From a virus: DNA of 64,000 bases. The notes below the pieces were generated by a model. That model had not been told where the DNA came from and did not search any database. It was given only the letters and a program-made list of their open reading frames with translations. The stretch lies in IMG/VR virus record IMGVR_UViG_3300028392_000041, positions 1-64,000 of that record. One strand, given 5' to 3'. Shown here piece by piece: positions 14,646 to 59,467 of this stretch. How positions within the stretch are numbered: position 1 is the first letter of the stretch; each line of letters begins with the position of its first letter. The position numbers and the translations under genes were made by a program.

Positions 14646-15698
14646 TTAACTGGTATATCTAATGATAACGACACCGCCACCACCATTACCACCGACACCT
14701 GATGTTGGAGAAATTGGAGTTGTTGGACCACCACCATATCCACCACCGCCACCACCAGTTCCTGGTGTTCCGTTTTTATCTGTTCCTGGATTATATGTTG
14801 GACTAGTGCCATGACCACCACCACCAGAACCTCCTGGTCCACCAACAATAGAAGGAGAATTTGGTTGATTATAGTGACCACCGCCACCACCACCTGCGTA
14901 GGTAGTTCCATTCAACCATGATGAACCATTACCACCTGCTCCTGTGTTGCTTGAGGTTTCTAGTCCTGCTTGACCAGCTTGAGAAGCACCGCCACCGCCA
15001 CCTGCTTGATAGTAAACACCTGCTGGACCAGCAGAACCACCTGCGTTTCCTTGACCAGGAGTTCCTGATCCACCCGATCCGTTGTCATTTCCACCGCCAC
15101 CGCCAGAACCTCCTGGACCTGCGTTACCGCTACCTGAAACACTACCACCAGTACGAGAAGCACCTGCACCACCACCAATCGCAGTGGTCGGAACAACACT
15201 TATTCCACTATTTCCACCTTGAAATCCATAATTAGAGTAACCATTCCAGCCTGCTGCTCCTGGAGAAGTACCACCACCTGAGCCACCACTACCAACAGTA
15301 ACAGTAACTGTTCCAACAGTTAAAGTTGTTGATCCGTTTACATATCCACCTGCGCCACCACCACCTTGGCCACCTCGACCATCGGTACCAGCACCACCGC
15401 CACCACCAGCAACAATAAGATAATCAACACTCTTAGTTCCTTGTGTAACTGTCAGAGATCCAGACTGAGTCCATGTTTGATAAGTGTAGTTTCCTGATGT
15501 TGTGGTTGTTGCGTTCACATTTGCTGTGGCGAATGCTCCGATACCAATCCATGATGAACTTACTGAATCGTAATATTCAAGATATGAGGTTGTCTCATTT
15601 TGGCGAAGCATTCCGAAACTTCCTGTTGGTCTTTGTGCAGTTGTTCCGACAGGAAGCGTAATCGCTTGTTGACCTAGTATTACTCCATCTCTTGCCAT
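14646..15698 (-). CDS. Glycine-rich tail adhesin, paralogue 1
   Basis: The 350-residue protein has an N-terminal attachment region (MARDGVILGQQAITLPVG-TAQRP, then SYLEYYDSVSSSWIGIGAF), a Thr-rich linker, and a C-terminal 250-residue domain built of GGGGG tracts separated by short variable strings. It closes with GVVIIRYTS. Glycine-rich domains ending in VIIRYT occur in many phage and bacterial adhesins. It is close kin to the two genes that follow. All three share an identical 26-bp stretch encoding TYAGGG and its left flank. Probable role: receptor binding with variable tips. Confidence 0.75.
   Translation of the reverse strand: MARDGVILGQQAITLPVGTTAQRPTGSFGMLRQNETTSYLEYYDSVSSSWIGIGAFATANVNATTTTSGNYTYQTWTQSGSLTVTQGTKSVDYLIVAGGGGGAGTDGRGGQGGGGAGGYVNGSTTLTVGTVTVTVGSGGSGGGTSPGAAGWNGYSNYGFQGGNSGISVVPTTAIGGGAGASRTGGSVSGSGNAGPGGSGGGGGNDNGSGGSGTPGQGNAGGSAGPAGVYYQAGGGGGASQAGQAGLETSSNTGAGGNGSSWLNGTTYAGGGGGGHYNQPNSPSIVGGPGGSGGGGHGTSPTYNPGTDKNGTPGTGGGGGGYGGGPTTPISPTSGVGGNGGGGVVIIRYTS
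14893..14918. repeat. 26-bp direct repeat, copy 1 of 3
   Basis: An identical 26-base sequence beginning cctgcgtagg and ending ttcaacca occurs at 14893-14918, 15952-15977 and 16981-17006, once in each glycine-rich adhesin gene. It encodes the conserved WLNGTTYAG segment. The bases on one side diverge sharply, so it could serve as a recombination anchor between the genes. Confidence 0.85.
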
Positions 15699-15710
15699 TT
15701 TAATTCCTAA

Positions 15711-16727
15711 TTATGTTGTATATCTAACAATGACTACACCACCGCCACCAGCAGCACCTGTCAAACTATTTCCACTTGTAGGTTGATTACCACCTGCACC
15801 GCCACCGCCACCACCAGTTCCTGGTGAACCAGCAACAGCTGCAATATTTTTATCAGCGCCACATGCGCCATTTCCGCCACCACCTGCTCCACCATAAGAA
15901 GTTTGTGTTATAGAATATCCGTTTGAGTGATGAGCACCACCGCCACCACCACCTGCGTAGGTAGTTCCATTCAACCAAGTTTTTCCACCACCACCATACG
16001 AAGCAGCTCCTGGCGACGCTTGAGCAGAATTACCACCAGCTTGGTTAGCACCACCACCACCACCACCCCAATAGTAAACATCTGGACCTGAGCCAGAACC
16101 ACCTGCGTTTCCTTGGCCAGAAGTTCCTGATCCACCTGGACCATTGTCTGTTCCGCCACCACCGCCAGAACCTCCTGGGGTTCCATTGTATGGACCAGCT
16201 GGTGCACGACATCCACCGCCACCGCCACCGAGTGCTGTTGTTGGAACACCTGTGAGCGAACTATTGTTACCAGAGTAACCAACGATAATATTTGCTCCTG
16301 GTGCTGATCCACCGCTACCAACAGTAACTGAGTATACACCACCGACAAGTGTCATTGAACCAGAAACATATCCACCTGCTCCACCGCCACCTTGTCCTCC
16401 TGGACCAGTTGTTCCACCACCTGCGCCACCACCAGCGACAACAAGGTAGTCTGCAGATTTAACACCTGATGTAACTGTTAGCGAACCAGACTGTGTCCAA
16501 GTCAAATATGTATATCCACCAGAAGCCGATGTTGTTGCTCCAACACTTTGTTGTTGGAATGCTCCGACACCAATCCAAGATGTTGTTGTTACATCATAGT
16601 ACTCAATATACCCAGTTGTTTCATTTGCTCTAAGCATACCAGAAACACCTGTCGGTCTTTGTGCAGAACTTCCTCTTGGTAGAGCAACATACTGCGCTCC
16701 TAGTATTGATCCATCATTCGCAGCCAT
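15711..16727 (-). CDS. Glycine-rich tail adhesin, paralogue 2
   Basis: This 338-residue protein shares the architecture of its two neighbours: adaptor (LGAQYVALPRGSSAQRP), YIEYYDVTTTSWIGVGAF, TWTQSGSLTVTSG linker, and a C-terminal polyglycine domain ending GVVIVRYTT. It is the most divergent of the three in the glycine domain, where the strings between GGGG tracts differ (for example VYYWGGGGGGANQAG). It lies 12 bases after paralogue 1 and 9 before paralogue 3 in gene order. Tandem duplication followed by tip divergence is the simplest explanation. Confidence 0.75.
   Translation of the reverse strand: MAANDGSILGAQYVALPRGSSAQRPTGVSGMLRANETTGYIEYYDVTTTSWIGVGAFQQQSVGATTSASGGYTYLTWTQSGSLTVTSGVKSADYLVVAGGGAGGGTTGPGGQGGGGAGGYVSGSMTLVGGVYSVTVGSGGSAPGANIIVGYSGNNSSLTGVPTTALGGGGGGCRAPAGPYNGTPGGSGGGGGTDNGPGGSGTSGQGNAGGSGSGPDVYYWGGGGGGANQAGGNSAQASPGAASYGGGGKTWLNGTTYAGGGGGGAHHSNGYSITQTSYGGAGGGGNGACGADKNIAAVAGSPGTGGGGGGAGGNQPTSGNSLTGAAGGGGVVIVRYTT
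15952..15977. repeat. 26-bp direct repeat, copy 2 of 3
   Basis: Copy in adhesin paralogue 2, identical to the copies at 14893 and 16981. Spacing to the neighbours is 1059 and 1029 bases. Confidence 0.85.
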
Positions 16728-16736
16728 TGATATTCC

Positions 16737-17783
16737 TTAAGTTGTATATCTAATAATGATTGTTCCGCCACCACCATTACCACCGACACCTGATGCTGGA
16801 GAAATTGGAGTTGCTGGACCACCACCGTATCCGCCACCACCTCCACCAGTTCCTGGCGAACCATTAATTAATGCATTAGATTGTTGTGGCGATGTTCCGC
16901 GACCACCACCACCAGAACCAGCAGTACCTCCGAGTAAAGTAGAAGTATTTGGACCATTATAGTGGCCAGCACCACCGCCACCTGCGTAGGTAGTTCCATT
17001 CAACCAAGTGGATCCGTTTCCACCAGCACCAGTTGGAGGAGCTTGCTCAACACCTGCTTGACCAGCTTGAGAAGCACCGCCACCGCCACCTGCTTGATAG
17101 TAAGTTCCTGCTGGACCGCCTGATCCACCTGGATTTCCTTGACCAGGAGTTCCTGATCCACCTGAACCATTGTCGTTACCGCCACCACCGCCTGATCCAC
17201 CTGGACCTGCGTTACCAGGAGCGCCACCAGTAATTCTTGATGCTCCTGCGCCACCACCAATTGCTGTAGTTGGGACGGATGTCATAGAACTATTATTACC
17301 TTGGAATCCGTAGTTAGCATAACCACCATATCCAGTAGATGATGGAGAAATAGCACCACCATTACCACCGCCACCAACAGTCATTGTATATATGCCATTG
17401 TTAACTGTTACAGAGCCACTAACATATCCACCAGCACCACCGCCACCTTGTCCACCACGACCATCAGTGCCAGCACCGCCACCGCCACCTGCTACGATTA
17501 GATAGTCAATTGTTTTAGTGCCAGCAGTAACAGACATTGTTCCTGACTGAGTCCAAGTTTGATAAGTGTAGTTTCCTGATTGTGTTGCTGTGTTATTTGT
17601 AAAAGTGGCATTAAATGCTCCGATACCCAACCAAACTGCATTGGTTGCATCATAGTATTCAATATACTTGGTGTCGGAGTTCGCTCTTATCCAACCAAAC
17701 TGTGGTGAACCTGGACGATCTGCAGTTCCACCAACTGGTAATGTTAAAGCCTGTTGCCCTAATATTGCTGTATTAGTTGCCAT
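16737..17783 (-). CDS. Glycine-rich tail adhesin, paralogue 3
   Basis: The 348-residue protein is closest to paralogue 1, sharing the strings QGGGGAGGYVSGS, NDNGSGGSGTPGQG and GGGYGG followed by a TPISP segment. The N-terminus (AILGQQALTLPVGGTADRP and YIEYYDATNAVWLGIGAF) is the shared attachment part. It overlaps the upstream S74 fibre gene by one base. Differences from paralogue 1 cluster between glycine tracts, as expected if these are exposed recognition loops. Confidence 0.75.
   Translation of the reverse strand: MATNTAILGQQALTLPVGGTADRPGSPQFGWIRANSDTKYIEYYDATNAVWLGIGAFNATFTNNTATQSGNYTYQTWTQSGTMSVTAGTKTIDYLIVAGGGGGAGTDGRGGQGGGGAGGYVSGSVTVNNGIYTMTVGGGGNGGAISPSSTGYGGYANYGFQGNNSSMTSVPTTAIGGGAGASRITGGAPGNAGPGGSGGGGGNDNGSGGSGTPGQGNPGGSGGPAGTYYQAGGGGGASQAGQAGVEQAPPTGAGGNGSTWLNGTTYAGGGGAGHYNGPNTSTLLGGTAGSGGGGRGTSPQQSNALINGSPGTGGGGGGYGGGPATPISPASGVGGNGGGGTIIIRYTT
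16981..17006. repeat. 26-bp direct repeat, copy 3 of 3
   Basis: Copy in adhesin paralogue 3, identical to the copies at 14893 and 15952. Confidence 0.85.
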
Positions 17784-18634
17784 TATTTAATTCCCTGTAA
17801 TTCTTTTACTTGATTATTTAACTCTTTAATTGCCTCAATGAGTAAAGGAACAATTTTTTCATACTGAACAGTTTTATAATTTTCTCCAGAGCGAGAGATC
17901 TCAGTTTCTTCAAATCGAATAATATCGAAGGGAGCTGGTTTAACTGCTTCTGGTAAAACTTTCTCAACATCAGCAGCAAGAACACCGACCTGAGATTCTT
18001 TATTGGTAAAACCAAACGATTCTGCTAATTGGTTGGCATTATAAGTTACACCATTCAGAGCCATAACTTTATTTAATGCATCTGTAATTGGTGTAATATT
18101 TTCTTTTAATCTGGCATCAGAGTAATAAGAAGTAATTTGGTTTGTAGCACGAATTTCGCCTGTAGTTCCTGTTCCAGCAACACCAACACCGATTGATCCA
18201 AATTGCACATTTGACGCAGAAGCCAAATCTTGTGGGGTTGACAGAGTAATTGAACCAGCACCATTAGTAACTGTAATCTGGTTAGTAGTACCAGTTAATG
18301 TTGTTTTTGTGAGAGTATTACCAGTTGTATTACCAATTAAAATTTGACCATTAGTAAATGTAGTTTGACCAGTACCACCAGAAGCCACTGGTAGTGCGCC
18401 ACCTGAGATCGTTAGTCCTGTAGCTGTAATATTTCCAACAGCAATATCGCCAGCACTGTTTCTAAGAACCAATGTGCTTCCAGTATTTGCATAAGACATA
18501 ACACTGGTTTCAATTTTATTCGTGGCAAGACTGATAAAATTATTATCGATTTCTGCGCTGGAAAGTGGCGATCCCTTTACTGTGGGAGCGTATGTTGCGT
18601 CGGTGGAAACTCTGGTTGTCAGGGCTGTGGTCAT
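17783..18634 (-). CDS. Tail fibre with S74 chaperone tail (short)
   Basis: The 283-residue protein has a fibre adaptor (STDATYAPTVKGSPLSSAEIDNNF), a brief repeat shaft (LPVASGGTGQTTFTNGQILIGNT) and an S74 intramolecular chaperone from about residue 168 (YYSDARLKENITPI), ending in a coiled coil (LLIEAIKELNNQVKEL). Family members cleave themselves before Ser in SDxRLK after folding. It borders the enzyme island on its downstream side, mirroring the S74 fibre at 25552-26796 on the other side. Confidence 0.85.
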   Translation of the reverse strand: MTTALTTRVSTDATYAPTVKGSPLSSAEIDNNFISLATNKIETSVMSYANTGSTLVLRNSAGDIAVGNITATGLTISGGALPVASGGTGQTTFTNGQILIGNTTGNTLTKTTLTGTTNQITVTNGAGSITLSTPQDLASASNVQFGSIGVGVAGTGTTGEIRATNQITSYYSDARLKENITPITDALNKVMALNGVTYNANQLAESFGFTNKESQVGVLAADVEKVLPEAVKPAPFDIIRFEETEISRSGENYKTVQYEKIVPLLIEAIKELNNQVKELQGIK

Positions 18635-18659: not shown

Positions 18660-18667
18660 TATTTATT
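18660..18667 (-). promoter_or_regulatory. Late promoter-like box AATAAATA
   Basis: On the minus strand AATAAATA lies 26 bases upstream of the fibre ATG at 18634, with an AGGAA ribosome binding site between. It overlaps the end of the halogenase gene and would allow separate late expression of the fibre. Confidence 0.45.
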
Positions 18668-19787
18668 ATTTAGTGTATCCAATGCCAGCTGCAATGGCAT
18701 TCCAGCTTTTATCTGGAAATAGGTTAAAACTGTACTGTACATCATTTTCGTTTATTCTATTTAATAATTTTTCTGGCATATAATTATTAAGTTGAAAATC
18801 CTTCCAGAACCCTGTGTCAGCTCTTTGACTGAGGTAGTGAAAGTACAAAAATGATAAAATATCTTCATTCAACTCTTTTACATCATTGTTTACTTTTTCT
18901 GGATTATCTCTATTCTGCACAAATAATTTAAGTGCCATAATCTGAATCCAGATTGATGTTGCTTCCAATGGTTCAATAAATCCTGAAGATAATCCAACTG
19001 CCATACAGTTGTTCACCCAAACCTGTTTATATGCGCCAGCACTAAAATTAAAAGTTCTTGGTGAAACAAAATCGTGTCCAAGATAATCTCTAATTTCTTC
19101 TGCAGCTTCCTCATCTGTTGTCATTGTTGAATCGAAAACATATCCACACCCATAACGACCTTGAACTGGAATCTTCCAGATCCAGCCATATTTCATTGCA
19201 ACAGATTCTGTATAGTCAGGAGAATTATCATTTGGTAGAAAGAAAGGTATGGCACGATTACATGGCATAGGATATTCTTCCCAATCAGACTTATATATTT
19301 CTCCAATTAACAGTCGTTTAAATCCCGAACAATCAAAAAAGAAATCGCCTGATACTGGACCAGCTGGTGTTACAAGACTGGTTATATCTTTATTATCTAG
19401 TAGTACCTTTATTACTTCATTATTAATTATTGTAACACCACGAGATACTGCTACATCTTGTAAATATTTTGCCAATAAAGAAGCATCAAAGTGTAAAGCA
19501 TATTTGTTATCCCAGAAATTATGAAAGTAATGTTCACCATCACCATTCCAGTTTGTAAACTTAATTCCTGTTTTTAATGTTGCTTTACAGTTTGAAACTA
19601 ATTCTAATTCGGTAATACCAACCTCTTCAAGATACTCCATAAAAGCAGGAGTAGTTCCTTCACCAGCACCAAGAATACCAATTTCTGAACTTGCGACTAT
19701 CGTAACTTCATCATCTGGAAAGTTTTTGTTTAAATACAATGCTGTCAACCAACCAGCAGTTCCGCCACCGAGAATGACATATTTCAT
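18666..19787 (-). CDS. Flavin-dependent halogenase (tryptophan halogenase family)
   Basis: The family uses reduced FAD, oxygen and halide to halogenate an aromatic substrate. The FAD motif GGGTAGW (residues 7-13), the halogenase signature WIWKIP (202-207), the catalytic-type lysine K72 in LKTGIKF (equivalent to PrnA K79) and the SGFIEPLEATS block with E275 are all present. The residue after that glutamate is Ala276, where PrnA and RebH have Ser. At 373 residues it is shorter than PrnA (538). It overlaps the adjacent oxygenase gene by 4 bases. Halogenases of this family are known from cyanophages. The substrate is unknown; the island context suggests a protein or peptide, by inference. Confidence 0.88.
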   Translation of the reverse strand: MKYVILGGGTAGWLTALYLNKNFPDDEVTIVASSEIGILGAGEGTTPAFMEYLEEVGITELELVSNCKATLKTGIKFTNWNGDGEHYFHNFWDNKYALHFDASLLAKYLQDVAVSRGVTIINNEVIKVLLDNKDITSLVTPAGPVSGDFFFDCSGFKRLLIGEIYKSDWEEYPMPCNRAIPFFLPNDNSPDYTESVAMKYGWIWKIPVQGRYGCGYVFDSTMTTDEEAAEEIRDYLGHDFVSPRTFNFSAGAYKQVWVNNCMAVGLSSGFIEPLEATSIWIQIMALKLFVQNRDNPEKVNNDVKELNEDILSFLYFHYLSQRADTGFWKDFQLNNYMPEKLLNRINENDVQYSFNLFPDKSWNAIAAGIGYTK

Positions 19788-20311
19788 TTAAAGTGTGTAG
19801 AAATTGCTATCGACAATCTCATCTCTTGACTTAAATTTGATTCAACAGAATGAACAATATATCCTGGAAAAATTAATAGCATTCCTGGAACTGGAGTAAT
19901 TTTATGGTAAGGTCTATAAGACTGCCATGTTACATCTGTTCTTGCTTGTGGGTCTTGCCATAATATAGATCCTCTTGGATCATGTAGTAAAATATCACCA
20001 GAGTTTTCTGGAACTTTAACATAGTAAACAACAGCCAACATACACTCAGGGTGATGATGTGGAGAATTATTTCCTCCTGGCATCGTAGGATTTTGTCTAG
20101 CAGATAGCGTAAAATATTTTGAAAGTTTACATTCTTCTGCAACTGATTCAATGTATGGTAAAACAATATCTTTTAACTTTGGCGCAATATGAAAATAATC
20201 AGAACCCTGTGTATAGTGTGGTGCCAGCGCAAGCAATTCCTGATTCAACATACCAGAATCAGATATCACTGTTTGCCAAACAGGAGTTGTAAATAAAGTT
20301 TCTTTATTCAT
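19784..20311 (-). CDS. 2OG-Fe(II) oxygenase-like protein 1
   Basis: This 175-residue protein matches the phage 2OG-Fe(II) oxygenase family that hydroxylates or otherwise oxidises substrates with 2-oxoglutarate. Likely iron ligands are in HHHPE (H85-H87) and H154 (VHSVE); R165 (RLSIA) would bind 2-oxoglutarate. The conserved GDILLHDPRG is at 105-114. I chose the ATG at 20311 over a TTG at 20362: it overlaps the upstream stop as ATGAATAA and gives the same N-terminal pattern (LFTTPVW) as the paralogue (MFGTPLW). It is a near neighbour and paralogue of 20304-20840, and overlaps the halogenase gene. Confidence 0.8.
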   Translation of the reverse strand: MNKETLFTTPVWQTVISDSGMLNQELLALAPHYTQGSDYFHIAPKLKDIVLPYIESVAEECKLSKYFTLSARQNPTMPGGNNSPHHHPECMLAVVYYVKVPENSGDILLHDPRGSILWQDPQARTDVTWQSYRPYHKITPVPGMLLIFPGYIVHSVESNLSQEMRLSIAISTHFK

Positions 20312-20840
20312 AAATCGACATGGCAATTGATAATCTAAGAGTTCCGCTAAAATTTGGCTCAACTGAGTGTATCAAATAACTTGGAAATAAAATAAGCATC
20401 CCAGGTTTGGGTGTTATTCTATGATATATTCTTTGAGTTTTTCCAGTATCTTCTGTTCTGGCGTTTAAATCTGGCCAATCAGTTCCACCTCTTGGATCAT
20501 GCAGCAAAATATCTCCACAATTTGATTCTGCTTTAACATAATAAATACCAACCAATTTATGCCCATGATGGTAGTGTGGTGTATCTAATTCGTTTGGAAA
20601 TAATGGTCTTTGTGTTCCATGTATTCCTTTAGGTTTATTTCTCCAATTATACTGAACAGAAATTTCGTCACATATTTCTTTCATTTTGTATTTTAATTTT
20701 TTAATATTATCACCAGCAAGATCGAAATAATTTCCGCTGGTAAATAACATACCTTCTCGTTCAAGAGCAGTATTATCGAGTAAACCTTTTAAATCAAGAA
20801 CCCATAAAGGAGTTCCAAACATTATATTATTCTGCAGCAT
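20304..20840 (-). CDS. 2OG-Fe(II) oxygenase-like protein 2
   Basis: The 178-residue protein is a paralogue of the adjacent oxygenase. It has HYHHGH (residues 89-94) as the probable iron-binding segment, GDILLHDPRGG (109-119), the distal His158 (IHSVE) and R169 (RLSIA) for 2-oxoglutarate. Tandem duplication of this kind of gene is seen in some cyanophages. The start overlaps the upstream gene by 14 bases; an internal ATG at 20822 is an alternative. Its substrate is unknown. The two paralogues differ most before residue 85, which may reflect different targets. Confidence 0.8.
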   Translation of the reverse strand: MLQNNIMFGTPLWVLDLKGLLDNTALEREGMLFTSGNYFDLAGDNIKKLKYKMKEICDEISVQYNWRNKPKGIHGTQRPLFPNELDTPHYHHGHKLVGIYYVKAESNCGDILLHDPRGGTDWPDLNARTEDTGKTQRIYHRITPKPGMLILFPSYLIHSVEPNFSGTLRLSIAMSIYE

Positions 20841-21519
20841 TACTTTTTTTAATCAGTTCCTGTAAATTATCAATCGCCCAATAATGATTTTCTTCAATTT
20901 CATAAATTAATTCTGAGATTGCAAAACAAACATTATATGTTTTTACTTTAGGATTAATCTTATCTATAATGTCAATGTTAGCCACTACCATTAATGGTCT
21001 TTCGCAATCCATAGAAGAAATAACTTTGGGATCTTTTATGTATTCAATTGCTAAGTTATTTACTTTATCAAGAGCTAATAATTTTTGCTCTAATACCTGT
21101 AATGGTTCGCTCTTTATAATTACCAATTCGGGTGGCATTTCATGTAGGATTACAAAATCCATATTTGGTGGACGAACAAAATAAATAAGTTTTCCACGAT
21201 TATATAGAGGACTATGTCCAGCAATTAATGATCCAGAATTTTCCATGTCTGGACATGGACAATTAAATAAATGCTCAAAGGGTAATTGTTTATATGAGTC
21301 TCCATCAATAATTCTGTTTGGAACTAAAAATGCTATCTCTACAGGTTCTTCTTCTGTTCCACGATCACCTTTTACAATGTAATCCAAAAATACACAATCT
21401 TTGTCTTCAACTTGACTTAACACATACTCTGGTGGATCGAGCACCTCAAGAGAAATGACGCATTCTAATTCTTTGGCTGCATCAATAAATTTTTGTAAAT
21501 TTGGGGTAATTGTTGCCAT
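20827..21519 (-). CDS. Unknown protein of the enzyme island
   Basis: I do not recognise this 230-residue protein. It has no signal peptide or membrane segment. The N-terminal half is mixed alpha/beta (residues 20-120, with LFNCPCPDMENSG and an LIAGHSPLYNRGK stretch); the C-terminal half looks helical (LQVLEQKLLALDKVNNLAIEY, ISELIYEIEENHYW). It lies 1 base downstream of the SPASM radical SAM gene and overlaps the oxygenase that follows, so it is surely part of the same operon. A substrate-recognition or partner role for the radical SAM enzyme would fit but is a guess. Confidence 0.75.
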   Translation of the reverse strand: MATITPNLQKFIDAAKELECVISLEVLDPPEYVLSQVEDKDCVFLDYIVKGDRGTEEEPVEIAFLVPNRIIDGDSYKQLPFEHLFNCPCPDMENSGSLIAGHSPLYNRGKLIYFVRPPNMDFVILHEMPPELVIIKSEPLQVLEQKLLALDKVNNLAIEYIKDPKVISSMDCERPLMVVANIDIIDKINPKVKTYNVCFAISELIYEIEENHYWAIDNLQELIKKSNAAE

Positions 21520-21520
21520 C

Positions 21521-22969
21521 TTATGCCTCTACTTTTGATTGTCCGTATACCTGAACATCATCAATTTGAGTAACAATCTCGCTCACCACTTTAATAGGTA
21601 TAACTTTCTTTTTTGTTTTTTCTTTATGCTCGAACTGTGTTCCCCAAATATCTTGTCGTTCCAATGGAAGAACATCATTTTTAATTAGAACAGGAACATA
21701 ACCTCTAGTCATCTTTTCAAACCCTAATGCAAATAAAGCAATATTATCTGAGTATGCATTGTCGCAAGAAACTTCCCATAGTTCTCCATCAAGGAACATA
21801 CAAGAACCTTTACAAATATGTAGGACTGGACATGCTGAACATTCTTTACGATTTCTCCAATGTGTTGCAGTTTTAACAGCTACATTATCATAATCTTCTA
21901 AAGTTCCAGATAAATGACTTTCTCCATTCATACCAGTTTCAACTGGAGAAACATTTTGACAAGTCATAACATTACCACGAAGATCAATGGCTAATGTGTT
22001 TTCTTCATCCATTCCACACTTCTGACCAACAAATTTTGCGTTTCTGTGAGTAAGAACTGATGTAACAAACTGATCAACTTTTGTCGTAATCATTGTAAAA
22101 CCAATATTACCATTATTAGAGTAAATATCATTAAATGATAATTTTCTAAAATCAAAATGTTCTTGTTTTGTGTTTAATGAACTTTGGGCACCATCTGCGT
22201 CATACGCATCAACAATAGTGCCTTCGCCAAGAACAATATTTTCGTCGCCAGTAAAATTAATAAACCAATTATGTATATCTTTACGACTTTGATTTTTTGC
22301 ATTAAGCATAGAGTTAAAACTCATGCGTCCCTGTTTTTTCATAATACGATAAAAATCAAGAACTATTTTTTTCTGTTCTGGATCTTCAAATGGATCTGGA
22401 CCACGAACTGATTGTCCTGGACCATCATGACTTATGGCTACCGAAAATCCCATGTAGTACAGCCATTGACAAATTTCTTTGGTTAAAATAGAACCATTAG
22501 TTATAACACTGAATTTTGGTTCAACTTTCCAATCAGAAAATCTTTCGCGAAGTGCTTCAGCCAATGGTTTTAATGTTTTCCAATAAACAAAAGGTTCGCC
22601 ACCCCAAAATTCAATTTTAAGACCAGCTTGTTCAGAGAAATTTAAAACATCAAGTTTTTCTAAAAAAGCGTCAATATCTTTTTTAGATGTTTCTGGTGCT
22701 CTTTCCACAAATTTTTGCGAACAATAATCGCAAGAATAATTACAAGATAAACCAAGTTGAATCTTCAATAGAGTTATATCTTTAGATTTTTTTATTGGAT
22801 TAGTTTTATCAAATGGCAAAGACTCTTTTCGAGTTTCTGGTTGGCGTTGATCTTCTGGGTATTCTATAACGACACCCTCGTGATTGGTTAAAGTATTAAT
22901 CTCATTGTCGTAGAAGAAAACCTTCTTATCATTATCACCAAGTCGTTCAGCATGAATTTCAAAAATCAT
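21521..22969 (-). CDS. Radical SAM enzyme with SPASM domain (peptide-modifying type)
   Basis: The protein has the radical SAM cluster motif CNYSCDYC (C76, C80, C83), the GGEPF motif (residues 123-127) and a full SPASM cluster pattern: C318-x13-G-x4-C337, then C377-x2-C380-x5-C386-x3-C390-x11-C402. SPASM enzymes usually act on peptides or proteins, making thioether or C-C links or oxidising Cys or Ser. At 482 residues it fits the family. It lies 24 bases downstream of the Cys-rich protein gene, the obvious candidate substrate. It lacks the PqqE-type CxxxCxxC context, so I do not call it PqqE. Confidence 0.9.
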   Translation of the reverse strand: MIFEIHAERLGDNDKKVFFYDNEINTLTNHEGVVIEYPEDQRQPETRKESLPFDKTNPIKKSKDITLLKIQLGLSCNYSCDYCSQKFVERAPETSKKDIDAFLEKLDVLNFSEQAGLKIEFWGGEPFVYWKTLKPLAEALRERFSDWKVEPKFSVITNGSILTKEICQWLYYMGFSVAISHDGPGQSVRGPDPFEDPEQKKIVLDFYRIMKKQGRMSFNSMLNAKNQSRKDIHNWFINFTGDENIVLGEGTIVDAYDADGAQSSLNTKQEHFDFRKLSFNDIYSNNGNIGFTMITTKVDQFVTSVLTHRNAKFVGQKCGMDEENTLAIDLRGNVMTCQNVSPVETGMNGESHLSGTLEDYDNVAVKTATHWRNRKECSACPVLHICKGSCMFLDGELWEVSCDNAYSDNIALFALGFEKMTRGYVPVLIKNDVLPLERQDIWGTQFEHKEKTKKKVIPIKVVSEIVTQIDDVQVYGQSKVEA

Positions 22970-22993
22970 AGTATTCCCAATTTTATAGTTTAA

Positions 22994-23413
22994 TTACCAG
23001 CAAGCACAATCACAAACAAAACAATTACATTGACATTGACACGCACAATTTACCCATTGATCTTGGTTCTGCGTGCAGTTATATGTAGTGGCACAATTTG
23101 TTCCAGGCTGTAAATATGATTGTGTATCACAGTTTGCGCAATTAATCGTATTACAATTTGAACAGTTATTACATTGAGCAGTACCACCTGTTCCTGGAGC
23201 TATTCCAGTTAAACTTTCTGTACAGTTACCATTGTTACAATTACCATCAGCATTGCGTTGGTAATAATTTAACCCATGAAGACTATTATAGTCTGTTGGA
23301 TTACCCTTAGTGTTATCTTTAATCCAGTCGATGCCAGTCTGCGTGGTTGTTCCGCGACCTGTTTCGTTATTAACATCGCTAGTTGCTATTGCTCCAGATG
23401 CTGGTGTTGTCAT
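22994..23413 (-). CDS. Cys-rich virion-type protein, candidate substrate of radical SAM enzymes
   Basis: The 139-residue protein has two parts. Residues 1-55 (TTPASGAIATSDVN-E-GRGTTTQ) resemble the common 'ASGAI-SDVN-ELGR' opening of phage tail proteins. Residues 59-138 hold 17 cysteines and no methionine; 10 of the 17 follow an asparagine. The end is a CxC ladder: Cys at 123, 125, 127, 129, 131, 134, 136 and 138, then a final Trp. It has its own exact late box and lies between a B12-type and a SPASM radical SAM gene. I infer a tail component whose tip is enzymatically cross-linked. Disulfide or metal binding are alternatives. Confidence 0.8.
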   Translation of the reverse strand: MTTPASGAIATSDVNNETGRGTTTQTGIDWIKDNTKGNPTDYNSLHGLNYYQRNADGNCNNGNCTESLTGIAPGTGGTAQCNNCSNCNTINCANCDTQSYLQPGTNCATTYNCTQNQDQWVNCACQCQCNCFVCDCACW

Positions 23414-23444
23414 GACTTTACCTTGATTGCCTTGTATACAGTAC

Positions 23445-23452
23445 TATTTATA
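23445..23452 (-). promoter_or_regulatory. Late promoter, exact TATAAATA, for the Cys-rich gene
   Basis: The minus strand carries the exact T4 late consensus TATAAATA, 32 bases upstream of the ATG at 23413. It overlaps the stop codon of the B12-type radical SAM gene. The other island genes lack such a perfect box, so the Cys-rich protein appears to be made in excess over its enzymes, like a structural protein. Confidence 0.75.
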
Positions 23453-24959
23453 ATGCTCCAACCATAGATTTATATTCTAAAAACTTGTTAGAATTTAAGG
23501 ATGGTATATCATATTTTTTTATAGTTTCTTCTTCTGAGAGAGAGTAAATATCTTCCAAAGATATCCCAGTAGATAGGGCTGCAGGAACATAAAAGCCAGA
23601 TATCTTATTCATTGGGTTTCTGAGATCGTTAAACTTATTGGCTATATCTAAACACATACGATAGTTTAATTTTTGAGTTTTTAAATCCCAACAGTATTTT
23701 AAATCTTCTTGGAAGGTATATCCATAAACCTCTGGATTGATACTAAATTCTGAACCATATTTAGAAAGTGGATCTTCTTTTCCATAATTAAACATCATTA
23801 ATGGATAATATAAAATAGATTGTAATGGGTTATCTTCTTCTAAACTCCAAGACAAGAGTTCATTAAAATATGCAAGATTATCGTATGGGAGACCAAGGAT
23901 AAAGCCAGCTTCCATATTAACTTTATTTTCCCATTTTTCGCGAAGCCAATATAATCTATCTTTTACTTTATTTGGATTTAGTCCTTTACCAATTGCTTTA
24001 GCCGATTCTGGTTGCATTGTTTCTAAACCAAAAAAATTACCAACCAATCCCATATCCGTAAGCAAATCAGCTTGATGTGGATATTTGTTAATTAAATCAA
24101 TCCTAAGATAAGTAGAAAATTTTGGTTTAAATGGTAAGGAAGTAAATAGTTTGTGGAGTATTTCTAATTTATCATTATCATCATTAAATGTATCATCAGT
24201 AAAAAAGTAAGTGTCTGTCCCGTGAATTTCCCAAGTCTTAATTAGTTCATCTCGCACTTGTTCTAAATCGCGAACATATGTGCCTTTCTTTTTACCAGTT
24301 AGAGCATATGAACAAAATTTACATTTAAAAATACAGCCACGACCAAGTTCAATTGGTAATGCTTCACCTTTTAAAATTGGATAGTTCCACCAGCGAGTTG
24401 GAATATTTTTTACATCTGGTTCTGGAAATTTGGTAGAGTCAATAATTCTACCAAAAGAATTTAAAGATTTACCTGCCAAGTAATCGGTCAATGCAACTGT
24501 AGATGTATCAGCGTAACCAAGAACATAATGATCAATGTTACGATCTTTCATAAACCATGGGGTTCTTGCACCACCAAAAATTATTTTTGCTTGACTGTTG
24601 GAACGAACGAATTCAAATAATTGTTCTATTTCAGAATAATTTTCTGTATAATACATATCTTCAACATCATTATTACCTCTTGAATCTGCAACTCGTTCTT
24701 TAAATGTTTGATTTGGTCTCTGTCTTTGCCAAAAGAAAGTAGAAGAAAATCCAATCCAAAGAGTTTCTTTGCCAATATGTTTTTTTAAAACATTTAAAAT
24801 TTCTTCAATCGTAAATTTGTTTATGTAATCTAAAACAAATGTAGAATATCCAGCATCTTCTAAAGCTGATGCGAGTCTATATGGACCAAGAGATCTATAA
24901 ACAGAACAACGATCTTCAGAATTCCATGTTCCGCCAGATAATATAATACAGTTAGACAA
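23448..24959 (-). CDS. B12-binding radical SAM protein
   Basis: The protein begins with a cobalamin-binding-like domain (ILSGGTWNSEDR, GPYRLASALEDAGY) and has the radical SAM motif GCIFKCKFC (C209, C213, C216 from the chosen start), followed by LRIDLIN and GLETMQP segments of the TIM barrel. B12 radical SAM enzymes methylate unactivated carbons or do ring contraction. I chose a TTG at 24959: it overlaps the upstream stop as TTGTCTAA and has GAAGGGA at good spacing. A TTG at 24974 is the alternative. No ATG exists near the start. It lies immediately upstream of the Cys-rich gene. Confidence 0.85.
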   Translation of the reverse strand: MSNCIILSGGTWNSEDRCSVYRSLGPYRLASALEDAGYSTFVLDYINKFTIEEILNVLKKHIGKETLWIGFSSTFFWQRQRPNQTFKERVADSRGNNDVEDMYYTENYSEIEQLFEFVRSNSQAKIIFGGARTPWFMKDRNIDHYVLGYADTSTVALTDYLAGKSLNSFGRIIDSTKFPEPDVKNIPTRWWNYPILKGEALPIELGRGCIFKCKFCSYALTGKKKGTYVRDLEQVRDELIKTWEIHGTDTYFFTDDTFNDDNDKLEILHKLFTSLPFKPKFSTYLRIDLINKYPHQADLLTDMGLVGNFFGLETMQPESAKAIGKGLNPNKVKDRLYWLREKWENKVNMEAGFILGLPYDNLAYFNELLSWSLEEDNPLQSILYYPLMMFNYGKEDPLSKYGSEFSINPEVYGYTFQEDLKYCWDLKTQKLNYRMCLDIANKFNDLRNPMNKISGFYVPAALSTGISLEDIYSLSEEETIKKYDIPSLNSNKFLEYKSMVGAL

Positions 24960-25533
24960 TATATGTCCCTTCAAATACTAAACAAATTCTTGGTATATCG
25001 CTATTGTGAATACTTACTGCATGTGGAATATCTGGAGAGTGTATAACAAGTCTACCTGTTCTTGATTTGATAGTTGTTATTTTAGATTCATCATACTCAT
25101 AATAGTGTGTATTAAATTTACCACCATTAATGAATAGTAGGTTTGCTCCATCTTCTGGCACTTGGTAATAAAAAATTGCAACGAAGTCTGGTTTCTTTGC
25201 TAAATTTTCATTTATATGAGCGTGAACCAAACCCTCACTATTCTTCATCATTTTATTACACCAAGATTTGGTGTAATTTATTCCAGACGCTTTTGGGTTT
25301 GCTATTAAAACTTTTTCAGTTATCCAGTCTACTAATTTACCTGCTCCTGGCATATTAACAATATCAGACCAGTCGTTTCCAACTGAAGTCAAAACATTTC
25401 CCTGTGCTGAGTCGTATTTAGAACCTTGTTCTCTGTTTATAACTTGTGGGAGTTCTAGTAATAGATTTATACTAGCAGATAATAATGAATTTTGATACAA
25501 CGATGTATCATCACATTGAATAATGTGTAACAT
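24952..25533 (-). CDS. 2OG-Fe(II) oxygenase-like protein 3 (divergent)
   Basis: The 193-residue protein shows a probable HxH iron site (H104 and H106 in LVHAHINEN), a distal H171 (IPHAVS) and R182 (PRICLVF), the layout of a double-stranded beta-helix 2OG oxygenase. It lacks the LLHDPRG signature of the other two in the island, so it is a separate branch. It is the first island gene in transcription order, 18 bases downstream of an S74 fibre gene, and overlaps the radical SAM gene that follows. The substrate is unknown; a sidechain oxidation of the Cys-rich protein is one possibility. Confidence 0.7.
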   Translation of the reverse strand: MLHIIQCDDTSLYQNSLLSASINLLLELPQVINREQGSKYDSAQGNVLTSVGNDWSDIVNMPGAGKLVDWITEKVLIANPKASGINYTKSWCNKMMKNSEGLVHAHINENLAKKPDFVAIFYYQVPEDGANLLFINGGKFNTHYYEYDESKITTIKSRTGRLVIHSPDIPHAVSIHNSDIPRICLVFEGTYIV

Positions 25534-25551: not shown

Positions 25552-26796
25552 TTATTTTAATGCTTGAATCTCTGCTCTCAGTTCTTTAATTGCTTCAATA
25601 ACCAATGGCATCATACGAGCATAATCAACTGTTAAATACTGCGCATCAATCGGAGCTGGACCAACAATTTCTGGTAGTACTGATTCAACTGACTGAGCAG
25701 AAACACCAACTTCTTTCTTAACAGTATATCCTAAATCTTGAGCAGTTTGATTGGCTTCAAAATAGAACCCTTCCAATGAACAGAGTTTGTCCAAAGCATT
25801 TTCAATTTTACCAAGTTTATTTTTTAAGCGATCGTCAGAATAATAACCAGTAATGTTGCCAGTTGCAGTTATATTTCCAGTAACAGCAATTCCATTTGCT
25901 GTAATAGAACCACTTGCAGACAATGATGTTGTATTAATACTACCATTAGCATATAATCCGCCAGTAATAGAAGCTGTTCCAGCTACAGTAGCATTGCCAG
26001 ATAAAACTAATGATGTAATAGAAATTCCTGATGATGCTGGAAGATCAACAGAAATATTTCCACCAACACCACTACCATTAGTAATAACAATACCATTACC
26101 ATTGGTAACAATTGATCGTTGAATAACAGAACCAGCACCAAGACGAACATAGATTCCAGTTGCTGAGTTTGCTGCAGCAATACCTGTTAATTCGTTTGAG
26201 AATGGTTGAACATCAGAACCAAGCTGAAGCCCAAGGTTAGAACGAGCAGCAGAAGCAGTCGCTGAGCCAGTTCCACCATCGGCAATTGCCAAAGCAGTTG
26301 TAAGACCAGAAATTGTTCCGCCAGTAATAGCAACAGCACTTGCTGCCTGTGTTGCGATAGTCCCTAATCCAAGGTTAGAACGAGCAGAAGAAGCAGAAGA
26401 TCCGCCTGTTCCACCATTATTAATAGCAACTGTGCCCGAAACATTGGTTGCGTTTCCACTTAAAGTTCCAGTTACATTACCTGTAACATTACCAGTTAAA
26501 TTCGCAATTACTGTAGTAGCACGAACTGTTCCAGCAAAAAGATCTCCATTAGAATCGCGAAGAGCAATAGTATTTGCCGTTGCTGCAGAGTCAGAACTAT
26601 ATCCATCCAACAAGTCAGCATCTAAACCAGAACCAGTTCCATCAACAGTTTTCAATTTGGTAAGAACATCAGCTGCAGTGTAGGAAGCTGATGGCAAAGC
26701 AAGATTTAACTGTGTATTGATATTATTAAAGTTATCGTCGACCTCTTGGTTTGAGAGAGGACTTCCTTTAATAGTGCGTAGCGTAATTGATGCCAT
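25552..26796 (-). CDS. Tail fibre with S74 chaperone tail
   Basis: The 414-residue protein has an adaptor (MASITLRTIKGSPLSNQEVDDNFNN), a repeat shaft with LDADLLDGYSSDSA and two copies of an 'IADGGTGSATASAARSNLGL'-type unit, and an S74 chaperone from about residue 318 (YYSDDRLKNKLGKI) ending in KELRAEIQAL. The 'LDADLLDG' motif is common in phage fibres. It lies upstream of the enzyme island. The start overlaps the previous stop as TAATG. Confidence 0.85.
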   Translation of the reverse strand: MASITLRTIKGSPLSNQEVDDNFNNINTQLNLALPSASYTAADVLTKLKTVDGTGSGLDADLLDGYSSDSAATANTIALRDSNGDLFAGTVRATTVIANLTGNVTGNVTGTLSGNATNVSGTVAINNGGTGGSSASSARSNLGLGTIATQAASAVAITGGTISGLTTALAIADGGTGSATASAARSNLGLQLGSDVQPFSNELTGIAAANSATGIYVRLGAGSVIQRSIVTNGNGIVITNGSGVGGNISVDLPASSGISITSLVLSGNATVAGTASITGGLYANGSINTTSLSASGSITANGIAVTGNITATGNITGYYSDDRLKNKLGKIENALDKLCSLEGFYFEANQTAQDLGYTVKKEVGVSAQSVESVLPEIVGPAPIDAQYLTVDYARMMPLVIEAIKELRAEIQALK

Positions 26797-58676: not shown

Positions 58677-59120
58677 TTAGAATGAATATTTCAAGCCAGC
58701 AATAACAGTACTACCATCTAAAGAACTAACTTTAGATTGTCCTGCTTGATAACGATAATCAGCAGTGAGAGCAACTTGTTTGCTTAATGGATAAGAAACA
58801 CCAGCACCAACTAATGCAGCATAGCCATCAGTTGTATTCTTTTGATCCAAGTAAGCAACTCCACCTTTAACTGCGATGGTCGCTGCACCAACTGTTGCAA
58901 CATCATACGAACCAACTAAAGTGTACTTGTTCATGTCAGTTCCAGTTTTGTATTGATCAAATCCAGCAGTGATGCCTACTTTATCAAACTTCTGTCCAAC
59001 AGTAATACCTACACCAGTACGATCTGTATTGGCAGTATCGCGACTTGCGTTGATACCTAGTTCAACTGCTTGAACACCCATAGATGCCAATAATGCTGCG
59101 ATTAAAATAACTTTTTTCAT
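58677..59120 (-). CDS. Small outer-membrane beta-barrel-like protein
   Basis: The 147-residue protein has a signal peptide (MKKVILIAALLASMGVQA) and about eight amphipathic strands (VGITVGQKFDKVGITAGFDQY, YTLVGSYDVA, AALVGAGVSYPL, VALTADYRYQAG), ending AGLKYSF with the C-terminal Phe that marks Gram-negative outer membrane proteins. It resembles small OmpA- or OmpW-type host barrels. A phage-coded barrel could mask receptors or change permeability. An AGGGAA site lies upstream. Confidence 0.8.
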   Translation of the reverse strand: MKKVILIAALLASMGVQAVELGINASRDTANTDRTGVGITVGQKFDKVGITAGFDQYKTGTDMNKYTLVGSYDVATVGAATIAVKGGVAYLDQKNTTDGYAALVGAGVSYPLSKQVALTADYRYQAGQSKVSSLDGSTVIAGLKYSF

Positions 59121-59134
59121 TTAATTCCCTTTTT

Positions 59135-59174
59135 AAAAAATATGGTAACTTATTCTGTTACGAGGAAAGTTACC
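59135..59174 (-). terminator. Intrinsic terminator of the tmRNA gene
   Basis: GGTAACTT and AAGTTACC (59167-59174 with 59144-59151) form an 8-bp stem on the minus strand, followed by ATATTTTTT. It closes the tmRNA transcript just before the outer membrane protein gene. Confidence 0.8.
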
Positions 59175-59432
59175 GAAACCCTAGTCAGCGATTAAGCTGC
59201 CAATGCGAACTGTGAGTCGTTTGCGTTTACTTTTGTTTAGTTTTAACATCTACTCTGATGGGTTGTCCACTTCTATACTTGTTACCCTGTCGAAACCTAG
59301 TCACCCCCATCAGAAGCACACCCATTAGAGCCCATAAAATGGTTTCTTTCATCTAACACATGCACTTCTGGTGGAGGTGGGGAGAATCGAACTCCCGTCC
59401 AGAATACTTTTCTAGTTGCTTCACACAACCAT
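59150..59432 (-). ncRNA. ssrA: Circularly permuted (two-piece) tmRNA
   Basis: tmRNA rescues stalled ribosomes and tags the protein for degradation. Read on the minus strand, the 3' piece comes first: T-arm GGGAG-TTCGATT-CTCCC, then CACCTCC and ACCA ending at 59369. After a 60-nt intervening segment (59309-59368, whose ends pair GAAGTGCA with TGTGCTTC) the 5' piece starts GGGGGTG at 59308, then AGGTTTCGACAGGG. GGGGGUG pairs with CACCUCC in 7 bp with G3-U70, the alanine identity pair. The tag frame at 59224-59192 encodes ANDSQFALAA then TAA. Long-range ACAACC/GGUUGU pairing can join the pieces. Exact ends are estimated. Confidence 0.9.
59192..59224 (-). other. tmRNA tag reading frame (resume codon GCA)
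   Basis: The frame GCA AAC GAC TCA CAG TTC GCA TTG GCA GCT TAA encodes the degradation tag ANDSQFALAA. The ALAA end is recognised by ClpXP in bacteria, and the AND start is typical of proteobacterial tmRNAs. It lies in the 5' piece of the permuted gene. Confidence 0.9.
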
Positions 59433-59438
59433 TCACCT

Positions 59439-59467
59439 ATTATACATTATATATTTATTATAGTCAA
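59439..59467 (-). promoter_or_regulatory. Sigma70-type promoter of the tmRNA
   Basis: On the minus strand TTGACT and TATAAT are separated by 17 bases; transcription would start near 59432, at the beginning of the tmRNA acceptor piece. The element overlaps the end of the exonuclease-like gene. Host polymerase could transcribe it early and throughout infection. Confidence 0.8.

Follow-up and report, generated by a model that had tools for sequence, protein, structure and literature searches.

Phage tail fibers are generally treated as unmodified polypeptides aided by chaperones. The nearest precedent for a SPASM-type radical S-adenosylmethionine (SAM) enzyme and a flavoenzyme acting on one protein is the QhpC, QhpD and QhpG proteins of quinohemoprotein amine dehydrogenase (QHNDH), in which the SPASM enzyme QhpD forms Cys-Asp/Glu thioethers in QhpC and the flavoprotein QhpG, working in a ternary complex, then acts on a Trp of QhpC (PMC7876137). 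We describe here a locus on the minus strand of a 64,000-nucleotide stretch (positions 1 to 64,000, hereafter the window) of the 111,827-base IMG/VR virus record IMGVR_UViG_3300028392_000041, at which the gene for a SPASM enzyme lies beside that for a Cys-rich protein, CYS, within an island of enzyme genes. Our reading, to which we assign a probability of roughly 75%, is that these genes belong to a phage-encoded maturation system that takes the distal C-terminal tip of a tail fiber as its substrate, with the product kept on the virion. SPASM-dependent protein maturation chemistry is known; virion fiber tips as a class of substrate, and their role, would be new. In the open-access full-text literature (subscription papers were outside the scope of the search) we found no paper that connects radical SAM enzymes with tail fibers.

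The SPASM protein (482 residues; 21,521–22,969, minus strand, as are all window features given below) passes the cut-off of TIGR04085, the SPASM domain, in a comparison of the window proteins with Pfam, NCBIfam and PHROGs. Based on its CX3CX2C, C..GX4C and CX2CX5CX3C..C motifs, whose cysteines are invariant in 15 diverse members of the family, we assign it to the SPASM/twitch maturases and propose it as a cross-linking maturase and invariant partner of CYS. Its best NCBIfam relatives are the geopeptide, PapB, CcpM and QHNDH maturases, with sulfatase and cyclophane maturases among the weaker matches. Because its scores are far below those of every named equivalog (84/400 bits and 75/340 bits, the latter for the PapB type), it was not filed as PapB, CcpM or QhpD.

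The proposed substrate, CYS (139 residues; 22,994–23,413), is considered a fiber-tip protein from its Cys content and its homologs. It has 17 Cys, all within residues 59–139, an excess with a binomial chance of 8e-16 at the rate of the neighboring proteins (46/6176), and it ends in a C-x-C run and a terminal Trp139 (codon 22,997–22,999). CYS matched no family in the three databases and no fiber domain of its own, and neither it nor the B12-type enzyme of the island had a tblastn match in isolated phages; it is tied to fibers by homology to three proteins, L127, L500 and L528, that are fused to the S74 intramolecular chaperone domain (PF13884). Three architectures occur among its homologs: a short form ending in "...CACACW", a long form of about 300 residues with an extra C-terminal domain, and the S74 fusion. 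The C-terminal domain of the long proteins (L012–L076; e.g., L032:9492-10394) has the pattern CSKIIC.KL..LGLM...ADQ.FG and a hydrophobic end, and it matched no Pfam and no significant PHROG family.

Scans of IMG/VR with the SPASM, B12-type and CYS proteins yielded about 160 loci, and 92 of the 101 with a SPASM homolog also held a homolog of the Cys domain, the remainder being cut or having distant SPASM members. A further genome scan and IMG/VR scan added 150 SPASM loci, located in prophages of Limnohabitans, Burkholderia, Rhodobacterales, Magnetospirillum and others. Grouped at 70% identity, this SPASM family from phages and prophages forms 62 clusters. In 53 of them a protein encoded on the same strand, no more than 3.5 kb away, contains CxCxC, mostly as (N/A/D)C repeats: at the C-terminus in 41, before a Hint domain in eight, before S74 in one and elsewhere in three, although a few lone matches may be due to chance (e.g., L266). 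In two of the nine other clusters the motif lies farther off, at 3.7 and 5.4 kb, and two more are cut. As controls, CxCxC was found at the end of only 14 of 7859 open reading frames (ORFs) lying away from SPASM, and of none in 60 viral contigs with the B12-type enzyme but without SPASM. The distant SPASM members make the more telling test, in that the proteins encoded next to them belong to other families than CYS and are nevertheless tail fibers with Cys-run ends (NCNCNCNCNCSTDC, FNCNCNCRC and NCNCACDC, or NCNCDCNCS directly before a Hint domain).

The association was also evident in the reverse direction. A scan with an alignment of CYS, which is independent of SPASM, together with a HAL (halogenase) scan, produced 65 distinct CYS proteins; SPASM adjoins 64 of these, and the contig of the exception, L529, stops 156 bases past CYS. 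A DNA scan for NCNCNC, using a pattern with 14 specified bases, gave 28 cases at the C-terminus, and SPASM lies beside 20 of these. Six of the other eight are cut before or at the expected SPASM site (in L383 the first part of SPASM can still be seen), and the last two are a 68-residue spurious ORF and L411, which we considered as an exception and rejected, its record being just a 7.7-kb fragment. SPASM was thus beside every C-terminal, fiber-like match with enough sequence. We also considered that the long CYS form might be uncoupled from SPASM; this was rejected, as a SPASM homolog accompanies it. The pairing of a SPASM enzyme with a Cys-rich, virion-type protein, made in an original prediction from the window sequence, has therefore gained comparative support and withstood the refuting condition set with that prediction, since no long-enough contig had CYS without SPASM. 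Its suggested check, conservation in related phages, found that in phages a SPASM gene of this family is still accompanied by a Cys-tailed fiber even where the fiber is unrelated. Strong comparative support exists for SPASM and a Cys-tailed fiber as the functional unit, one smaller and far more widespread than the 6.9-kb island, and by these searches a radical enzyme gene lies beside that for a Cys-packed fiber end in hundreds of other phages. Also observed at SPASM loci were a 297-residue gene between two different SPASM genes beside one Cys protein (L161:8385-12037) and a family-less protein of ~290 residues (L083:5312-6217 and relatives), which is near SPASM in 39 of the 62 clusters, typically after the Cys-tailed fiber.

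An alignment of 44 Cys-tailed proteins, one per cluster, has a mean identity of 11%, and its sole invariant columns are C-x-C-x-C, with the preceding Asn and a following Cys nearly invariant; the residues in the middle of CxC are N, A or D in 89%. As these proteins match tail-fiber PHROGs and the Pfam T7 tail fiber N-terminus, Mtd_N, collagen, CBM, S74 and Hint domains, we assign them mostly as unrelated tail fibers (T7-type, collagen-like and Mtd-type). The C-terminal end of a tail fiber is generally its host-facing end. The S74 fusions keep a Ser and, five residues on, a Lys (S-DKSLK in L127, S-DDTLK in L500 and S-DDRLK in L528), the residues that mediate S74 cleavage at the Ser (PMC3742440). 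Cleavage at that Ser, or at the Hint Cys, would put the Cys run at the mature fiber end, and because the run lies either at the C-terminus or right before a self-cleaving S74 or Hint domain, it would be the exposed end of the mature fiber. The isolated Achromobacter phage JWF provides an example, in that its gp28-gp30 region has "...NCNCDCNCNCS" before the Hint Cys, followed by the SPASM gene; the records of JWF and of a second isolated phage, 2-1, annotate the radical SAM gene, and that of JWF also the Hint protein, with no link drawn. The earlier claim that the product stays on the virion holds insofar as the fiber domains of the relatives point there, and rests on those domains, not on proteomics. 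An N-terminal "MTLPSSG.I" motif was not used as proof of virion location, based on its finding in one non-Cys relative (L066) and in none of the isolated phages.

The original prediction had described an enzyme cluster around a Cys-rich protein with S74 fibers on both sides, and this proved real in its ORFs, which were all present on the minus strand at the coordinates given, and in its family profiles. In order of transcription the genes are OG1, the B12-type radical SAM enzyme, CYS, SPASM, UNK, OG2, OG3 and HAL. The overlapping starts that had been reported also hold, as the eight successive junctions, the last with the fiber gene, are −23, +34, +24, +1, −14, −59, −4 and +31 nt; the −59 would shrink to about −8 if OG3 starts at an internal ATG near 20,311, which is probably its real start. 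Related contigs (L005 and L006, 60–87% identity) have the full island in identical order between two S74 fiber genes. The further proposal that the 6.9 kb forms one pathway survives for SPASM and CYS and fails as a fixed gene set, since some loci are without the B12-type enzyme, some without the oxygenases and some without the halogenase.

Each of these enzymes is best viewed as an optional tailoring enzyme. The B12-type enzyme (508 residues; 23,448–24,974) has the radical SAM motif and matches PF04055 at 3e-15, and its top NCBIfam matches are B12-binding/radical SAM families, although its B12-binding domain by itself is weak (E = 0.007, below the Pfam cut-off). That it might be essential was rejected from its absence in L007 and L008. 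Its family, like that of the halogenase, is also present in many phages without the Cys protein, and relatives of the island enzyme occur with other recurring gene sets in many viral contigs (L091–L158) that have neither SPASM nor the Cys protein. OG1 (24,952–25,533), OG2 (20,304–20,840) and OG3 (19,784–20,362; also TIGR02466) are assigned by the 2OG-FeII_Oxy_5 profile, PF13759 (2e-6, 2e-16 and 2.6e-19, all >27 bits and over the cut-off), to the 2-oxoglutarate (2OG)-Fe(II) oxygenases, and are putative catalysts. In 26 of the 62 clusters a 2OG oxygenase gene is no more than 4 kb from SPASM, compared to one of 62 at 4–8 kb. One Cys/SPASM locus has a gene of the fatty-acid-desaturase family amid its oxygenases (L013:12471-13169).

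HAL (373 residues; 18,666–19,787) matches the Pfam halogenase family PF04820 at 7.8e-95 and keeps the GxGxxG, catalytic Lys and Glu, WxWxIP and EPLE motifs, by which it is assigned as a putative member to the flavin-dependent Trp halogenases. Relative to PyrH-type enzymes it is without ~70 residues between residues 93 and 95, while some island-type halogenases have ~500 residues. We propose that HAL acts on the tip Trp, as every distinct Trp-ended CYS has a halogenase, save L490, the twin of that in the window, whose contig is cut before its place; none of the long CYS forms has one. From this rule a Trp was expected beforehand at the cut site of L500, the halogenase-bearing S74 fusion, which reads "...NCACFWS|DDTLK", with the Trp just before the cut; the halogenase-free fusions are without that Trp ("...CACACS|DKSLK" and "...CDCLFS|DDRLK"). 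These occurrences are suggestive of a halogenase being present where the mature tip ends in Trp.

Our proposed mechanism is that the SPASM enzyme, by means of SAM radicals, would join Cys sulfurs to carbons of the neighboring Asn, Asp or Ala residues, and that the resulting thioether bridges would build a compact covalent tip; by analogy with known maturases, the enzyme probably cross-links the fiber tip by thioethers. The oxygenases may hydroxylate this tip, the B12-type enzyme would probably methylate it and the halogenase would probably halogenate its C-terminal Trp. The modified tip would remain on the virion and could aid or protect host contact. We also lean slightly towards a general route to cross-linked adhesin tips, previously undescribed in tailed phages, in which SPASM reads an N-C-x-C-x-C tag, transferable to nearly every kind of fiber, and optional enzymes (2OG oxygenases, the B12-type enzyme and a peptidyl Trp halogenase) diversify the tip, giving a virion-borne natural product in host recognition.

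Comparison of sequences shows the linkage, the fiber nature of the relatives and a Cys run at the (processed) C-terminus. The bond type, the modified residues and the virion presence are what we infer, and hydroxylation, methylation and a role as a rigid or chemically altered adhesin tip are more conjectural. This counts against the maturation of fiber tips, as do several observations. AlphaFold gave no fold for CYS (pLDDT, its confidence score, of 47), and this was not interpreted. In the long CYS form a 150-residue domain with a membrane-like end comes after the Cys run, which an exposed tip does not directly account for. Five low-scoring SPASM clusters, mostly on bacterial chromosomes, have no Cys-tailed neighbor. 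No leader or RRE, the recognition domain of ribosomally synthesized and post-translationally modified peptides (RiPPs), was demonstrated, the RRE being absent from hidden Markov model matches of searches that were not aimed at it. The halogenase–Trp link corresponds to about two evolutionary changes on the tree and, because both traits change just twice, is not statistical proof; related phage halogenases occur without SPASM, and therefore the halogenase family has other uses.

Those other uses are central to a different explanation, that the halogenase, the oxygenases and the B12-type enzyme act on small molecules or on host surface glycans or lipids and lie near the fibers merely because this is a variable region, with SPASM and the Cys protein being separate. 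In cyanophages and pelagiphages it is common to find halogenase and 2OG genes with no SPASM or Cys protein nearby, and the enzymes of one locus include a desaturase. However, the 2OG genes gather by SPASM (26/62 vs. 1/62) in unrelated phages, the halogenase tracks the tip Trp, and the enzyme set is retained though gene order and genome location vary, so that we regard this explanation as somewhat unlikely. Another possibility is that the Cys tip is a metal-binding or disulfide knob and that SPASM, rather than cross-linking the cysteines, introduces a single minor alteration at another place on the fiber, such as an epimerization or an oxidized residue. Such CxCxC runs might be ligands for Zn, Fe or Cu, and SPASM enzymes also perform non-Cys chemistry, as the weaker matches to sulfatase and cyclophane maturases illustrate. 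Metal binding, however, does not need N, A or D between the Cys, and the N-x-Cys run is the sole feature common to the partners of the enzyme; since it gives the sole invariant columns in the 44 fibers, it would be the one shared recognition site. We consider such a knob quite improbable.

The SPASM relatives indicated by the geopeptide, PapB and CcpM matches mature peptides that are released, and the Cys protein could similarly be a free RiPP, its modified C-terminus released as a toxin or signal. The neighborhood, however, is without a protease, a transporter or a double-Gly leader, and the relatives carry the Cys run on full-length fibers that have T7, Mtd, collagen, Hint and S74 domains and whose genes sit in tail operons ahead of lysis genes. 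There is very little chance, in our estimation, that this is its function. The RiPP-like label of the original prediction was dropped, because the search of the neighborhood turned up neither a leader nor a protease, and no peptide that would be released.

The remaining island gene, UNK (230 residues; 20,827–21,519), directly follows SPASM and belongs to no family. Its predicted structure is an alpha/beta domain duplicated in tandem (pLDDT 81), for which Foldseek searches of the PDB and viral models returned nothing significant. The flanking fiber proteins (25,552–26,796 and 17,783–18,634) each have a C-terminal S74 domain. Directly downstream of the island, at 14,646–17,783, are three tandem proteins of 338–350 residues with Gly_rich_2 (PF21722), which look like polyglycine adhesins. 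The window also has, at 59,101–59,461, a transfer-messenger RNA gene with the tag ANDSQFALAA, in a phage.

If fiber tips are matured in this way, then host range, adsorption and virion stability would hinge on chemistry that is missed by sequence-based receptor-binding models, and recombinant fibers produced without the SPASM enzyme could be inactive. A SPASM gene with an NCxCxC tail is a simple genome signature, and the pairing ties phrog_1802, a phage protein family named merely radical SAM, to a substrate. It also offers a large natural set of enzyme–tag pairs for protein stapling.

Among known systems, QHNDH maturation resembles the proposed one in that a small structural protein receives several Cys thioethers from a SPASM enzyme, is then acted on at a Trp by a flavoenzyme, and is retained as a protein. 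The QHNDH maturase model, TIGR03906, hits the SPASM protein of the window (6e-18), and there is a weak match between QhpG and HAL. However, QhpC comes with a leader and a protease and serves in redox chemistry, whereas the phage substrate is a fiber tip with no redox partner and the phage flavoenzyme is of the halogenase type; profile searches of the window neighborhood found no QhpA/B partners, QhpE protease or quinone-forming Trp. The ranthipeptide and sactipeptide maturases (PapB, CcpM, geopeptide) are alike in SPASM architecture and in having a Cys-rich substrate next door, but the phage Cys spacing is mostly CxC, there is no released peptide and scores are far below the cut-offs. The phage flavin halogenases VirX1 and the cyanophage PrnA-like enzymes are of the same Pfam family and have the same motifs as HAL, although a link to the Cys protein is confined to the island type and HAL is shorter by about 70 residues. 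Self-processing fiber ends with S74 or Hint have the same C-terminal domains, which here follow an enzyme-linked Cys run. The gp28-gp30 region of JWF has the same architecture, its genes being annotated separately in the record with no link or function proposed. The phage system would work like QHNDH maturation and ranthipeptide formation, and is a member of neither.

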